Source of the DNA: Candidatus Sericytochromatia bacterium
Lineage (GTDB): Bacteria > Cyanobacteriota > Sericytochromatia > S15B-MN24 > JAQBPE01
Assembly: GCA_035285325.1 (NCBI GenBank)
Contig: JAYKJB010000063.1
Span: 62,001-126,000, forward strand
Length of the DNA stretch: 64,000 bases
Direction of reading: 5' to 3'
The position numbers and the translations under genes are program-made. Positions 6,697 through 13,944 of this stretch are shown here, one piece after another; the first letter of the stretch is position 1, and each line of letters opens with the position of its first letter. Below the pieces are notes generated by a model that was not told the DNA's origin, ran no database searches, and saw only the letters and a program-made list of their open reading frames with translations.

Positions 6697-6733
6697 TGTG
6701 GGGGCGCCTTGCGTGGTGGACCGGGGGGGGGAA

Positions 6734-7156
6734 ATGCTCGAATTATTCGACCTGGAGCCCAAGGACCGGCTAGTGGCCCAGTTGCTGCGGTCGCAGGGGC
6801 TCATTTCTGCTGAGCAGTTGAAATGCGCGCTGGAGCGTGCCCGTGCCAGTCTGTTTTTCAGCCTCTCCGAGGTGTTGGTCGGGGAAGGGGTGGTGACCCT
6901 GGACCGACTCGAGGCGGTCTTGGCGGATTATTGTCGCAAGCTTCGGTTGGGGGAACTCGCGGTGGCCAAGGGTGTCATCAGCGAGGAGCACCTTGAAATT
7001 GCGCTGAGCTTTCAGGAAGGGAAGGAGTCCCGCATCGGGGAGATCTTCGTCGAGATGCACTACGCGACGCCTGAGCAAATCGCCATGCTGGTGGACTTCC
7101 AGTCTCGCTGTCGCACCTCGGCTGTGCCCGGCTTGAGTCTCGATGCAGCGGTCTGA
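6734..7156 (+). CDS. Stand-alone protein with tandem MshEN-type c-di-GMP-binding motifs
   Basis: A 140-residue soluble protein built from four repeats of about 24 residues. The last two read RLGELAVAKGVISEEHLEIA... and RIGEIFVEMHYATPEQIAML..., each ending in Q and separated by exactly five residues. That is the architecture published for MshEN, the c-di-GMP-binding N-terminal domain of T4P/T2SS ATPases: RLGxx..xxG......L...LxxQ twice with a 5-residue spacer. The first two repeats (RLVAQLLRSQGLISAEQL; SLSEVLVGEGVVTLDRL) are more degenerate. There is no ATPase domain. The ATG follows a G-run acting as ribosome-binding site, and the gene overlaps nanE by 14 nt. Ligand binding is inferred from the motif only. 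Confidence 0.7.
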   Translation: MLELFDLEPKDRLVAQLLRSQGLISAEQLKCALERARASLFFSLSEVLVGEGVVTLDRLEAVLADYCRKLRLGELAVAKGVISEEHLEIALSFQEGKESRIGEIFVEMHYATPEQIAMLVDFQSRCRTSAVPGLSLDAAV

Positions 7157-8758: not shown

Positions 8759-8812
8759 GCCGGGGAGTGGCCGTGGTTTCTATCCAGCCGGATAGTGGGC
8801 GAGGATGCCGCT

Positions 8813-10303
8813 GTGGCGATGTCTGAGCTGGAGACGCTGATACGCGCTCGCTATCCACTGATTTATCTGGTCACGCCCGAGGAAGAGCGCGCCCTGGCAA
8901 CCCTGGGGGCGCTGGCGGAACAGATGGGGCGTGATCTTCATCGCTGGTCCTGCGTTCAGGGGTGGGGCGATGCGGGCACGCGTGACCCGCTCTCGGCGCT
9001 CGAATATGTGCGATTGGCCTCGGGACGCGGCATTTACGTCCTGTGCGACCTCCATCCCTTTTTCTCCAACGCGACGGTGGTTCGCAAGTTACGGGAACTG
9101 GCCCAGGCGCTCAAGCAAACGCCCAAGTCTCTGCTGGTCTTGGGGGCCGTGGTCAATCTTCCTGCTGAGCTGGTCTCTGACGTGGTCATTGTCGATTTCG
9201 AGTTACCAGATGCCAGCTTGATTCAGGAGATGGTGGGCCAGGCGGCGCATCTCGCTGGCCGCCCCTTGAAACTCGATCATCTGGAGATGGAGCGCTTGCT
9301 CGGGGCGGCACGCGGCCTGACCGCCGGGGAATTCGCCAATGGATTGGCCCGCGCCCTGGTGCGCCACGGGGCGCTCGATGCACGGGTGATTTCCGTCATC
9401 ATCGAGGAAAAGAGGCAGGTGGTTCGGAAGACCGGCTTGCTGGAATTCGTACAGCCGGAAGGAGCCCTGGACGAGGTGGGCGGTTTGTCACTTCTCAAGG
9501 AGTGGCTGCGCAAGCGCGGGCGGGCATTTGGCCGACCCGCACGCGATTTTGGCCTGCCGGAACCTCGCGGTTTGCTGCTCGTGGGGGCGCCAGGATGCGG
9601 CAAGAGCCTGGTTGCCAAGTGTGTGGCGGCACAGTGGGGCTTGCCTTTGCTGCGTCTTGATGTGGGACGCCTGCTGGCGGGTTTGGTGGGAGCGTCCGAA
9701 GAAAACACCCGGCGCGCTCTGAAGATGGCTGAAGGCCTCAGCCCTGCGGTCTTGTGGGTCGATGAGATCGAGAAGGGATTCGGAGCGACCGGCGGGGATG
9801 GCGGCACGGCCAGTCGCGTGCTGGGGACCTTCCTGACCTGGTTACAGGAGAAGTCCGCACCAGTCTTTGTGGTGGCGACGGCCAATCAGATTCAATGGCT
9901 CCCACCAGAACTTCTTCGGAAGGGGCGTTTCGACGAGATTTTCTTTGTCGACTTACCGGATGCCGAGGAACGTCGCGAAATATTGAGGCTTCATCTGGCC
10001 CGGCGCCATCGCACGGTCGACGAGGATGCGCTCCTGCGGTTGGCGAAGCTCACTTCGGGTTATTCGGGGGCCGAACTCGAGCAGGGCGTGATCGATGCCC
10101 TGTATGAGGCCTATGATGCTGCCCGACCTGTGACGCCGGCGGACCTGGAACGTGGCCTGACGACGATTGTCCCCTTGTCTCGTCATAGCGAAGAACTGCA
10201 GCCCATTCGTACCTGGGCCGCGCGCCATGCGCGTCCGGCCAGTGTGGCCTTGGGGTTGCCGGGGCCGTCCATCTGGGCGATTGAAGGGCCCTTGGGAGAT
10301 TGA
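8813..10303 (+). CDS. Ycf46-like AAA ATPase
   Basis: A ~496-residue AAA+ ATPase. The N-terminal half starts [17 protein letters not shown], typical of the Ycf46 family known mainly from cyanobacteria and plastids. The C-terminal AAA module has Walker A GAPGCGKS near residue 258 and Walker [12 protein letters not shown] near 313. Cyanobacterial Ycf46 has been linked to photosynthesis and inorganic-carbon use; this window shows no photosynthesis gene, so the role here is open. GTG 8813 is chosen because GAGGA lies 7 nt upstream; ATG 8819 and GTG 8795 are alternatives. The stop overlaps the helicase start (TTGA). Confidence 0.83.
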
Positions 10304-12180
10304 GCCGCTTGCTGGAGCGATTCGAATGGCTTCAACTGCCTGCCTCACAGACTGCGTCCGGCGAAGGGAGTGTACAGCGCCTGGGACAGGGGGGGCTGAC
10401 AGGGCCTCCCTCGGGAGTGGGCTTGGCGACTGCCTGCGTGAGGCCGTCGGAGCCGGCGCAAGCTGAGGCCTGCGTCCTGCCTCCGCGCGTGGAGACCGTC
10501 CCGTTGGGGGGAAACTGGCCGCTCGAATCCACCCAGGTTTTCCTGTTGCGGCGGCGCTTGGAACAGCTCCAACGGATCTCCGGGTTCGAGCGCCTGGTGT
10601 GTCTCGATGCCTGTCGGATTGATCCGCACCCCCATCAGCACCAGGCAGCCCTGCGTGTGCTCCGGGACATGCGCGGGAGGGCGCTGCTGGCGGATGAGGT
10701 CGGACTGGGCAAAACCATCGAGGCTGGTTTGGTCCTCAAGGAACTGGTCGTCAGGGGCTTGGCACATCGTCTGCTGGTGCTCGCACCGGCCTCGCTGACC
10801 CTTCAGTGGCAGGAGGAGCTCAGTCTCAAGTTCGATGAGACCTTCCACGTGGTCAAACATCCGGACGACTGGACCCAGGGCCGTCTGATTGCTTCGCTCG
10901 AACTGGCGCGTCAGCCTCGTCACCAGGCCTCGGCGCTGGCCCAGGCGTTCGATCTGGTGATTGTCGACGAGGCCCACAAACTGAAGACGCGCACGACGCA
11001 GTCCCATCGCTTCGTGAGTCGTCTCAACACGCGTTTCTTGCTGCTACTGACGGCCACGCCGGTCATGAACGATCTGACCGAACTCTACGCCCTCGTCAAT
11101 CTGCTGGTGGAGGGGGGGCTCGGCACGCCACGAGAGTTCGAGGCCCGGCACATGGATGCCAGTGATCCGCGGCTGCCGCTGCAGGAAGACGTGCTGCGTG
11201 CCCGTCTGGCCAGCGTGATGGTGCGACATCGGCGTGGTGCGGTGGGCGTTTGCTTGCCCCCACGGCGAGCCGCGATCTATCACTTGCAGATGCCACCCGC
11301 GGAGAGACGCCTCTATCTGGGACTGACGGCTTACATTCGGCAGGAACTGGCGGCTCACCCTGGCCAGGGGCAACTGAGGCTGCTCTTGGGGGTGCTGCAG
11401 AGGGGGCTGACCAGCACGCCGGCGGCAGTGGCGGCCACCCTGGGCAAGTTGAGAGCCGACTCAACCCTGGATCCGGCGAGTCGCTCAAGGCTCGCAGATT
11501 TTCAGGCCCAAGCCAGCGAACTGCTGGGTAGCCGCAAACTGGAGGCGGTGGGGGAGTTGCTGGAGTCGCATTGCCCGGGCAAGGTGCTGATTTTTACGGA
11601 GTTTCGACGCTCTCAAACGGTTTTGGCAGAGTACCTCGCCAAACGTGGCCTCGAGGTGGTCCTGTTTCACGGCAGCCTGGACGCGGCAGCTCGGCAAGCG
11701 GCCGTGACGAGATTTCGGGAGGCGGCGCGGGTCATGATCAGCACCGAGAGTGGCCAGGAAGGCTTGAACCTGCAGTTTTGCCAGACGCTGATCAATTTCG
11801 ATCTTCCCTGGAATCCCATGCGGGTCGAGCAACGGATCGGGCGGCTGCACCGCTTGGGGCAAACCAGGCCCGTCACCATCATCAACCTCTGCTATCAAGA
11901 GACCATTGAAGCGGCCGTGCTCGACTTGCTGGTCTCCAAAATCCGGCTCTTCGAACTGGTCGTCGGGGAACTGGATGTGATCCTTGGGGAGAGTGAGGGG
12001 GTTCATCACATCGAAGCGTGGCTCCAACAGGCTTGGTCTCAGTCGTCGGACGATCAGGACTTTGCACGCAGCGTCGAGGCTCTGGGGGAGGCTGTCCGGC
12101 GGGCCCGAGGGCGCTATGACGAGATCTGTCGGGCGGGTGAGGCGCTCAGTCGGGTGGCTGAGAGCACCGGGGTGCCCTGA
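10300..12180 (+). CDS. SNF2/RapA-like helicase
   Basis: A 626-residue superfamily 2 ATPase. Motif I DEVGLGKT is near residue 132, motif II DEAH near 224 and motif III TATPV near 251. The C-terminal helicase lobe has FTEF near 432, a TESGQEGLNLQ segment and motif VI QRIGRLHRLGQ near 510. It resembles the core of bacterial RapA/SNF2 translocases but lacks obvious extra DNA- or polymerase-binding domains. The first ~90 residues are low-similarity linker. It is coupled to the Ycf46-like ATPase upstream and to the cysteine-rich protein downstream (TGATG), so the three probably work together. The substrate is unknown. Confidence 0.85.
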   Translation: MSRLLERFEWLQLPASQTASGEGSVQRLGQGGLTGPPSGVGLATACVRPSEPAQAEACVLPPRVETVPLGGNWPLESTQVFLLRRRLEQLQRISGFERLVCLDACRIDPHPHQHQAALRVLRDMRGRALLADEVGLGKTIEAGLVLKELVVRGLAHRLLVLAPASLTLQWQEELSLKFDETFHVVKHPDDWTQGRLIASLELARQPRHQASALAQAFDLVIVDEAHKLKTRTTQSHRFVSRLNTRFLLLLTATPVMNDLTELYALVNLLVEGGLGTPREFEARHMDASDPRLPLQEDVLRARLASVMVRHRRGAVGVCLPPRRAAIYHLQMPPAERRLYLGLTAYIRQELAAHPGQGQLRLLLGVLQRGLTSTPAAVAATLGKLRADSTLDPASRSRLADFQAQASELLGSRKLEAVGELLESHCPGKVLIFTEFRRSQTVLAEYLAKRGLEVVLFHGSLDAAARQAAVTRFREAARVMISTESGQEGLNLQFCQTLINFDLPWNPMRVEQRIGRLHRLGQTRPVTIINLCYQETIEAAVLDLLVSKIRLFELVVGELDVILGESEGVHHIEAWLQQAWSQSSDDQDFARSVEALGEAVRRARGRYDEICRAGEALSRVAESTGVP

Positions 12181-13439
12181 TGGAAGAACCCGAAGCCTGG
12201 CAGTTTGCCCGGGCCTTTTTCACCGCCTGGGGCGGGACATGGCACGACACTCAGCCCGGGGTGGCCGAGGTGGACCTCGTAGGCGCCTTGCAGGAGGCCT
12301 TCGCGGTGCCGCGTTTGACGCTACTCGCCAGGCCGAATGCGGATGTCGCGGGTGAACTGGTCGCCCCGGGGTCGCGCCTTTTTCATCTGGTATCCAGTTT
12401 CCTGGGGGCCCGGGGACGGGCTGCCGTGTGCGAGTTGGTGCCGGGGGATTTTCCTGAGCCGATTCTGGAGATTCGCGCGCAGGACACGGAATTTCTCGGC
12501 CAGCTCGCGGCACCTCAGCATTTTGGCCTCTATGACTTCAAGTTTTCCTTCCTGTCGGATGAGATTCAAGAGCAACTTCACACGGTCATTCTGGACGGCG
12601 AGGGGCAGCTCGTGGCGGCAGACGCTTGCCCCGATCTGTTCGAGGCCGCCTGGCGGGATATTTTGCCCCAGGCGGGGCAAGCGCCTGGGCGATACCTGAC
12701 GGAGGCGGCAGAACTCGCGCGCGCCGCCGCGGAACGATTGGCCATCCCCCTGGCCGATGCGGCGGCAGCCCGCCTGGCCGTCGTGTCCGAGCGGCTTCAG
12801 CGTTACTTTGTTGAGCTGGCCTCGGAAGTGCCCGTTCGACCCCGTCGGGGCCAGAGCATCGAAAGCGCGCTGGAAGATACGACGCGACACCAGCAAGATC
12901 TGCTGGCCGAGCTGGCCCGGCGGCGTCAGGAGGAGGCACGAAGACATCAACTTCGGGTGCAGATCCGTCCGCTGGGATACGCGCTGGTGCAGGTGCCCGG
13001 CAGGCGTTACTCCTGGCGAGCGCAGCAGGGGCTTCAGCAGGTCGGGGTGACGATCTGGCAGAATCTGGTGACGGGTGAGGTGAGGTGGCCGACCTGCGCC
13101 CGCTGCGCCCAACCAACGGGGCGTCTATCCCTCTGTCGAGAAGGCCATCTGGCCTGTGATGCCTGTGCGGCCCGTTGTGAGGATTGCCACCAGTGGGGGT
13201 GTCGCGCGGAGTTGCGCTTGTGTGAAAGCTGCGGGGCAGCCGCCTGTGCGTCTTGTCTGGTGAAGCTGGCCTGTGGCCACTGGGCCTGTGGGCACCACGC
13301 CCAGTCGTGCCTGTGCTGTGGGCAATCCATCTGTCCGTTGTGTGCCAAGCCCTGTCCGCTTTGCCCGTCCGATCAAGCTTGGCTGCTTCTGGACCATGCG
13401 TGCCCCAGACACGGCCGTCGACCAGGCCTGCCCCCGTGA
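12180..13439 (+). CDS. Protein with cysteine-rich zinc-binding C-terminus, helicase partner
   Basis: A 419-residue protein I do not recognise as a whole. The first ~300 residues are an acidic, soluble region with a helical EEARRHQLRVQ stretch. The last ~110 residues hold about 22 cysteines in repeated CxxC pairs (CARCAQ, CDACAARCEDC, CESCGAAACASC, CGHWACGHHAQSC, CPLCAKPCPLC), suggesting several treble-clef or RING-like zinc sites. It starts on the last base of the helicase stop (TGATG). That coupling implies stoichiometric expression with the SNF2 protein; a nucleic-acid or protein adaptor role is inference. Confidence 0.75.
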   Translation: MEEPEAWQFARAFFTAWGGTWHDTQPGVAEVDLVGALQEAFAVPRLTLLARPNADVAGELVAPGSRLFHLVSSFLGARGRAAVCELVPGDFPEPILEIRAQDTEFLGQLAAPQHFGLYDFKFSFLSDEIQEQLHTVILDGEGQLVAADACPDLFEAAWRDILPQAGQAPGRYLTEAAELARAAAERLAIPLADAAAARLAVVSERLQRYFVELASEVPVRPRRGQSIESALEDTTRHQQDLLAELARRRQEEARRHQLRVQIRPLGYALVQVPGRRYSWRAQQGLQQVGVTIWQNLVTGEVRWPTCARCAQPTGRLSLCREGHLACDACAARCEDCHQWGCRAELRLCESCGAAACASCLVKLACGHWACGHHAQSCLCCGQSICPLCAKPCPLCPSDQAWLLLDHACPRHGRRPGLPP

Positions 13440-13536: not shown

Positions 13537-13944
13537 GTGGCCACTGTTGCGGAACGCATCGACCGATACTTTATCGAGCTGGATTGGACGTTCGAACGGA
13601 TCGACGACACGCTCTGGCGGACCTCGTTCCCCGGAGACCTTCAGGTCCACGACGTGTTTGTCTCCGCCGATGAGCCGGGTTGGGTGTCCTTCCGCAGCCC
13701 GGTTTGCACCCAGGTGCCGGAGCAGGCCAAGCCCGCGCTTTATGAACGGCTTCTGCGCCTGAACGCCTTGATTCCGATGACCAAGTTTTGCGTGATGGAG
13801 GGAGGAGCCGTGTTCGCCATGATCGATCTTCCCACGGCCGAGCTTGATTACAGCGAGTTCCGCACGGCGGTGCAAACCCTGGTGAATCACGCCGATGCGC
13901 ACGACAACGAAATTTATCAACTCTGTGGGATGTCCGCAGCCTGA
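13537..13944 (+). CDS. YbjN-like (type III secretion chaperone-fold) protein
   Basis: A 135-residue soluble protein with the look of the YbjN/CesT-like family widespread in cyanobacteria. It has an N-terminal helix (VAERIDRYFIELDWTFERID), then alternating beta strands (DVFVSADEPGWVSFRSPV), the PEQAKPALYERLLRLNALI helix and a C-terminal helix. YbjN proteins are chaperone-like or regulatory; the target is unknown. GTG 13537 was chosen because AAAGGAG lies 7 nt upstream; longer in-frame starts would run back into the preceding gene. It appears to have its own promoter, separate from the helicase operon. Confidence 0.72.
   Translation: MATVAERIDRYFIELDWTFERIDDTLWRTSFPGDLQVHDVFVSADEPGWVSFRSPVCTQVPEQAKPALYERLLRLNALIPMTKFCVMEGGAVFAMIDLPTAELDYSEFRTAVQTLVNHADAHDNEIYQLCGMSAA

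Follow-up and report, generated by a model that had tools for sequence, protein, structure and literature searches.

Introduction

Do three overlapping genes encode a single nucleic-acid-remodelling complex, or does the conserved unit comprise only some of them? This question is raised by a locus in the genome (G000; 3.83 Mb in 138 contigs) of a Candidatus Sericytochromatia bacterium (assembly GCA_035285325.1), of which a stretch of 64,000 nucleotides was analyzed (contig JAYKJB010000063.1, positions 62,001 to 126,000; hereafter the window). The locus encodes an AAA ATPase, a short Snf2 helicase and a cysteine-rich partner protein, which a preliminary description of the window had taken for an ATPase, a translocase and a zinc adaptor acting together. 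RapA (HepA), the RNA-polymerase-recycling Snf2 ATPase, is known mainly as a single chain of E. coli, and gene pairs consisting of an Snf2 helicase and a SWIM zinc protein exist. As detailed below, the locus points to a two-gene RapA-like enzyme, widespread and unnamed, and the reading of the locus as a trio is only locally true.

Arrangement of the locus

All three open reading frames are located on the plus strand. The gene of the AAA+ ATPase (8795..10303, 502 amino acids) starts with GTG at position 8795; alternative in-frame starts are found at 8813 (GTG) and 8819 (ATG). It is followed by the gene of the short Snf2 helicase (10300..12180, 626 amino acids; start codon TTG at 10300) and the partner gene (12180..13439, 419 amino acids; start codon ATG at 12180). 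The first junction reads TTGA and the second TGATG, which corresponds to overlaps of 4 nt and 1 nt, respectively, and confirms the overlaps of 1 to 4 nt noted before. Upstream, the trio is preceded by genes for a kinase of the ROK family and for a nanE-like epimerase, and a gene of the YbjN/TY-Chap1 family (13537..13944, plus strand; Pfam YbjN 35.4 bits, TY-Chap1 36.2 bits) starts 97 nt after the partner gene. The neighbours in the window comprise nanE, ROK kinase, YbjN and CBS-domain genes. Directly 5' of the nanE-like gene lies a gene (6698-7156) whose small product contains an MshE-type domain for the binding of cyclic di-GMP (76.1 bits to NF053729; cut-off 38).

The helicase resembles the motor part of RapA

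The 626-amino acid protein contains the Pfam domains SNF2-rel_dom (99.4 bits) and Helicase_C (86.7 bits), and its helicase motifs GLGKT, DEAH, TATP and QRIGR are intact. The nearest solved chains by sequence are those of RapA (E 2.7e-33), with which it has the Snf2 core in common, and a profile of the helicase matches RapA at 1.3e-90, with an alignment starting at RapA column 97. In the AlphaFold model (pLDDT 83.0), the Snf2 core spans approximately residues 105-617, and residues 1-74 are modelled as disordered (pLDDT < 50). In contrast to RapA, the model lacks the N-terminal docking domain (RapA residues 1-109). Comparison with the RapA model NF003426 yielded 188.2 bits for the helicase, compared to a cut-off of 576, so that membership in the RapA family by cut-off was rejected; the partner protein had no match to this model.

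According to an excerpt of a published study, the N-terminal domain and lobe 1 of E. coli RapA form the cavity that binds RNA polymerase at its flap-tip helix and zinc-binding domain, and the N-terminal domain may be autoinhibitory (PMC8666675). Since this docking domain is missing in the model of the window helicase, it does not follow from the fold that RNA polymerase is the target.

The partner protein resembles the C-terminal half of RapA

The partner protein contains 24 cysteines. The preliminary description counted about 22 of them in the last 110 residues; this number holds from residue 305 onward, whereas the last 110 residues contain 20. Read from the sequence, the cysteine-rich knuckles with 22 cysteines and eight CxxC motifs extend over residues 306-408 (13095..13403, plus strand). 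In an alignment of 54 chosen partner sequences (A6), the near-invariant cysteines of the family are those of the first CxxC pairs, which correspond to C306, C309 and C326 of the window protein.

Libraries of known families offer little for this protein. The window partner has no Pfam match above cut-off, including none to the SWIM domain, and no NCBIfam or PADLOC match. None of the library models covers the 54 partners scanned, which gave isolated weak matches only, namely single members to DrmD (E 0.0018 and 0.0042) and BrxHII (E 0.0048); ten partners compared with NCBIfam showed weak zinc-ribbon matches only, and in PHROGs one unnamed family was matched by two of the 54 partners. A direct search of viral contigs, plasmids and phages with the 419-amino acid protein found no relatives. 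Among solved chains, the partner profile gave only chance zinc-knuckle and coiled-coil matches, and RapA was absent from the best 60 of 77 matches.

A structural model was obtained with AlphaFold from the 54 rows of A6 (pLDDT 89.8). The predicted fold starts with an alpha+beta domain (residues 1-90), continues with an antiparallel sheet that accommodates an insertion of two long helices (173-215 and 227-255) and ends with the zinc knuckles. A Foldseek search of this model against the PDB returned RapA chains as the four best matches (E 2.5e-6 to 3.9e-5, probability 1.00), which are the only confident ones; the next match is unrelated and has an E-value of 0.16. With VIA-align, RapA occupied ranks 1-5 (Z 9.1-7.0, 198-228 residues), followed by a first non-RapA row with a Z of 6.3 over 59 residues of helix; residues 1-275 of the partner model (12180..13004, plus strand) superpose on RapA 708-968. 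A Z of about 8-9 lies in a range which, according to the tool, unmatched models commonly reach, and the partner is regarded as RapA-like because RapA stands alone in Foldseek, not because of this score. The identity between the two proteins is 10-13%, the rmsd is 4.6-6.0 A over the 198-228 residues, and the TM-scores of the whole model are low (0.28-0.32); the orientation of the predicted domains therefore appears to differ or to have drifted. A comparison of the partner profile with four RapA sequences is consistent with the relationship (P 1.1e-5, probability 61%, RapA columns 689-986), as the controls, one reversed and five shuffled, gave P >= 0.19. The predicted fold also agrees with the description of the C-terminal domain of RapA and BrxHII in an excerpt of a published study (PMC12839542).

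Structure prediction therefore gives good support to the view that the partner is related to the C-terminal half of RapA, encoded on its own and extended by zinc knuckles. The early view of an SNF2/RapA-type translocase accompanied by a zinc-bearing partner holds up, and the guess of something RapA-like is strengthened by the Foldseek and VIA-align matches of the partner itself. The term zinc adaptor describes the knuckles correctly but misses that about 275 of the 419 residues correspond to RapA-like C-terminal domains. In RapA, these alpha+beta domains with their coiled-coil insert belong to the same polypeptide as the motor; in the window they are predicted on a separate chain, encoded by a second gene and extended by zinc knuckles. 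The Snf2/SWIM gene pairs likewise place an Snf2 gene beside a zinc-protein gene, yet the partner described here is a predicted homolog of the C-terminal half of RapA.

Helicase and partner form a widespread pair

To survey the pair outside the window, 84,980 species were scanned with [ML]FELVVGE, a pattern derived from the C-terminal end of the helicase, which yielded at least 587 stretches and at least 478 relatives, and the best 80 of these relatives were analyzed as outside loci. One of them, L080, is a contig of the genome G041, which belongs to the same family as the window genome. The 80 loci span Gemmatimonadetes, Planctomycetes, Actinomycetota, Chloroflexi, Bacillota and Deltaproteobacteria/Myxococcales as well as Melainabacteria, Armatimonadetes, KSB3, Eisenbacteria and Euryarchaeota. 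At 77 of the 80, a downstream open reading frame on the same strand starts between -60 and +150 nt from the helicase end, the other three being contig ends, and 55 of these 77 overlap the helicase gene by 4 nt.

A protein of the partner family is encoded directly downstream at 74 of the 77 testable loci, 73 of which were detected by an iterative profile; the remaining one, L148, carries a partner split into two pieces by a stop codon. No partner was found downstream of three of the 77 helicases (L078, L107 and L152), two of which, L078 and L152, group together in a quick tree. Downstream frames of less than 280 amino acids (L078 and L148) were excluded from the family test, in which an iterative profile started from one Planctomycetes seed collected 87 of 89 tested partners, with the window protein in the first round. 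The window protein matches the final profile, which includes it, with an E-value of 5.5e-80. All 87 members match from before residue 60, i.e., outside the zinc part, and with four of eight outside seeds the window protein was retrieved through matches located in its first 300 residues (E-values between 3e-4 and 7e-6 in the set of 89); the outside seeds had no matches to shuffled sequences. The three longer Snf2 proteins L019, L023 and L024 were not matched by the profile of the partner family. Judged by these profiles, the partner family consists of same-strand genes located directly after a short RapA-type Snf2 helicase, and the window protein belongs to it. The cysteine content within the family ranges from few to 62, the latter in a KSB3 partner of 603 amino acids (L137, 6287-8098).

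The identities of the two chains correlate over 37 loci (rho 0.65, with 0.15 as the highest of 30 label permutations), which supports their co-inheritance; shared ancestry alone could produce such a correlation. For the helicases, 72 of the 80 were kept and eight dropped (cut loci, start or motif unclear). The quick tree groups the window helicase first with that of G041 (99) and then with L083 (95), a helicase from Deltaproteobacteria; the partner of L083, with 404 amino acids and 19 cysteines, overlaps it by 4 nt, and there is no AAA gene upstream of this helicase. The surroundings of the pair vary: its neighbours share few families across loci, and the first genes outside it show no marked strand bias (upstream 34 on the same and 27 on the opposite strand, downstream 40 and 31). 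The arrangement is also found on plasmids of Nostoc, Chondrocystis, Rhodovastum and Haloarcula, the partners of which are among the 87. The last two genes of the locus are thus a real unit, and the helicase/partner pair is ancient and widespread in bacteria and archaea. In the literature searched, mostly outside subscription journals, no description of a split RapA pair was found.

Relation to RapA-like defence proteins

Among the library models that match the helicase best are defence relatives of RapA, namely DrmD (NF038317, 241.7 bits) and the PADLOC entry BrxHI|BrxHII (271.8 bits). BrxHII of type 3 BREX is described as having a RapA-like architecture in the excerpt mentioned above (PMC12839542). 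The pair could hence belong to a DISARM- or BREX-type defence module, in which the helicase would act on invading DNA with the zinc partner as an adaptor, and a patchy distribution (13 of 292 Cyanobacteriota genomes contain the helicase subfamily at E <= 1e-70) together with the plasmid occurrence (24 records) would be in line with such a role. However, the DrmD score is far below the cut-off of 610, and in the window no methyltransferase, PglZ or DISARM gene adjoins the pair. In a scan of 101 of 250 called neighbours, which left out L080 and most near-duplicate Gemmatimonadetes loci, recurrent PADLOC matches were, in raw counts, mostly to more Snf2 helicases (four neighbours), and the Pfam matches were a mixture of housekeeping functions, again as raw counts. 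A defence module is therefore considered unlikely. The score and the neighbours also led to the rejection of DISARM DrmD as the identity of the helicase, and BrxHII was rejected in view of the helicase length of only 626 amino acids and the missing PglZ and methyltransferase genes. BrxHII, with approximately 940 residues, and DrmD are single long chains encoded in multi-gene defence loci, whereas the window encodes two chains and contains no such locus.

The AAA ATPase is coupled to the pair in one family

The first gene of the trio encodes a protein with a Pfam AAA domain (98.7 bits, residues 260-386 of 502) and intact Walker A (GAPGCGKS), Walker B (DEIEK) and GRFD motifs. It is presumably a Ycf46-like ATPase; none of the searches returned a reference protein under the name Ycf46. 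Identification as the anti-phage ATPase IteA/IetA (NF042959) was rejected (69 bits compared to a cut-off of 510). The family to which the window protein belongs is found in 185 of 292 Cyanobacteriota genomes (E <= 1e-60); in the window's class, AAA relatives are present in 13 of the 18 genomes (E <= 1e-30). Relatives with 45-51% identity were also found in Armatimonadetes, Polyangiaceae and KSB3 genomes (three of ten searched). The preliminary description regarded the Ycf46 family as otherwise linked to photosynthesis; this link fails because relatives of the AAA protein occur in non-photosynthetic phyla.

In the window's class, helicase relatives occur in seven genomes (E <= 1e-40) and partner relatives in six (E <= 0.001), and the order AAA, helicase, cysteine-rich protein and YbjN recurs only in G041. 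Two more arrangements of the class deserve mention. Class helicases with a longer partner (585-774 amino acids) and no AAA gene are present at G000:C115, G041:C329 and G050:C464 and in G021 and G038, with one or two genes between helicase and partner in the latter two; G013 possesses a helicase with the partner as an interrupted frame and no AAA gene. The pair at G000:C115 (L049, 3311-5635 and 5786-7609) represents a second Snf2 and zinc-partner pair of the window genome and falls into a different subgroup.

It could be argued that the AAA ATPase, the Snf2 motor, the RapA-like partner and the YbjN-like chaperone form one obligate machine of three or four components that works only as a whole. 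The genes are tightly coupled in the window, and G041 preserves their order (a 3-nt gap, then a 4-nt overlap) despite identities of only 62% (AAA), 55% (helicase) and 36% (partner), with 59% for YbjN. When 23 AAA relatives are placed in a quick tree, the operon copies of both genomes moreover form a single branch of their own (support 100), close to one of the two groups of paralogues; a second AAA copy of each genome (G000:C57 and G041:C99) is on a separate branch. However, an AAA gene adjoins the helicase at only one of the 80 outside loci (the best 80 of at least 478 relatives), which is the G041 contig itself, although 55 of the 72 full-helicase loci offered at least 2 kb of upstream sequence. 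Within the 13 helicase-bearing Cyanobacteriota, the window genome and G041 are likewise the only ones with an AAA gene coupled to the helicase operon among the AAA matches listed. An AAA relative is found in 11 further genomes of the class, and at nine places in seven of them no helicase of the subfamily adjoins it. Furthermore, YbjN, hlyC, pyrG, cdd and era (names partly read from translations) follow in both genomes, and the adjacency may be ordinary synteny; since this block is syntenic anyway, a joint function gains little support from the preserved trio in G041. A machine that works only with all of its parts is thus improbable. The trio does occur together outside the window, albeit in a single genome of the same family, and the three genes are not a conserved unit as first supposed. 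The AAA ATPase is a lineage-specific helper at best.

In G013, a different Snf2 protein of 948 amino acids is encoded two genes from an AAA relative. On a Haloarcula plasmid (L069, 1886-6743), a gene for an AAA-family ATPase precedes the Snf2 and partner pair; it was rejected as a second case of the window trio, as a blastp comparison of its product with the window AAA protein gave no match at E <= 1, and perhaps represents an independent coupling to a different ATPase.

Partners next to degenerate helicases

In two genomes, intact partners of 669 (G007) and 657 amino acids (G016) are encoded next to helicase-like genes without Snf2 motifs. The G007 gene (L045, 280-1743) is an open frame that has lost GxGKT, reads DGAH for DEAH and TSTP for TATP and lacks QRxGR; the G016 gene (L044, 1-519) is a helicase-like fragment, also without QRxGR. 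The partner may act independently of a motor in these two genomes. More generally, it might be a nucleic-acid- or RNA-polymerase-binding regulator in its own right that uses the helicase as an optional driver, and the variable cysteine content, from few to many, would suit such a role. This is very unlikely for the family as a whole: the motif residues are invariant in the 45 aligned helicases (A7, also chosen sequences), and the two genes mostly overlap, both of which suggest a stoichiometric complex.

The pair was also considered as a plain substitute for a missing RapA. In the window genome, no match exceeded the RapA cut-off; G041 and G038, however, possess a full-length RapA beside the split pair, and the substitute was rejected.

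Proposed function of the pair

The second and third genes of the locus probably encode a two-chain Snf2 translocase of the RapA/BrxHII type, which would displace bound complexes, most plausibly RNA polymerase. The split of a RapA-like enzyme into two chains is well supported by the predicted structures. The 626-amino acid chain would be the ATP-driven Snf2 motor, and the 419-amino acid chain would contribute the C-terminal half of RapA and the zinc knuckles, which would either replace or supplement the N-terminal docking domain of RapA. Translated from overlapping genes, the two chains would assemble into one enzyme, which most likely moves along double-stranded DNA using ATP, thereby pushing off RNA polymerase or other bound proteins. 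RNA polymerase is the first candidate because of RapA, which removes stalled polymerase in an ATP-dependent and torque-sensitive manner according to an excerpt of a published study (PMC9303389), and a stalled or post-termination polymerase would be the most plausible target. The knuckles and the coiled coil might guide the enzyme to its target or to nucleic acid, and the knuckles may thereby take over docking.

The AAA ATPase, and perhaps the YbjN-like protein, would have been added in one family of cyanobacterial relatives, where the ATPase may help to unfold or recycle displaced complexes. A more far-reaching scenario is doubtful: a two-subunit RapA would have spread over many phyla and archaea, one lineage would have added an AAA unfoldase, which recycles dislodged transcription complexes, and a YbjN-like chaperone, and a sister lineage would have lost the motor and kept the partner.

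These results correct the view that the locus revolves around an AAA partner or photosynthesis and direct attention to a two-gene pair that is absent from the protein-family libraries searched. If the split is true, it represents a natural dissection of the RapA motor and its C-terminal half and would give a name to many genes annotated as 'hypothetical protein' that follow genes annotated as 'SNF2-related protein'. It also opens the question of the role of the C-terminal domains in RapA itself, since in the split form these domains appear to be tuned separately, through a low or high number of zinc knuckles, or retained beside a dead motor.
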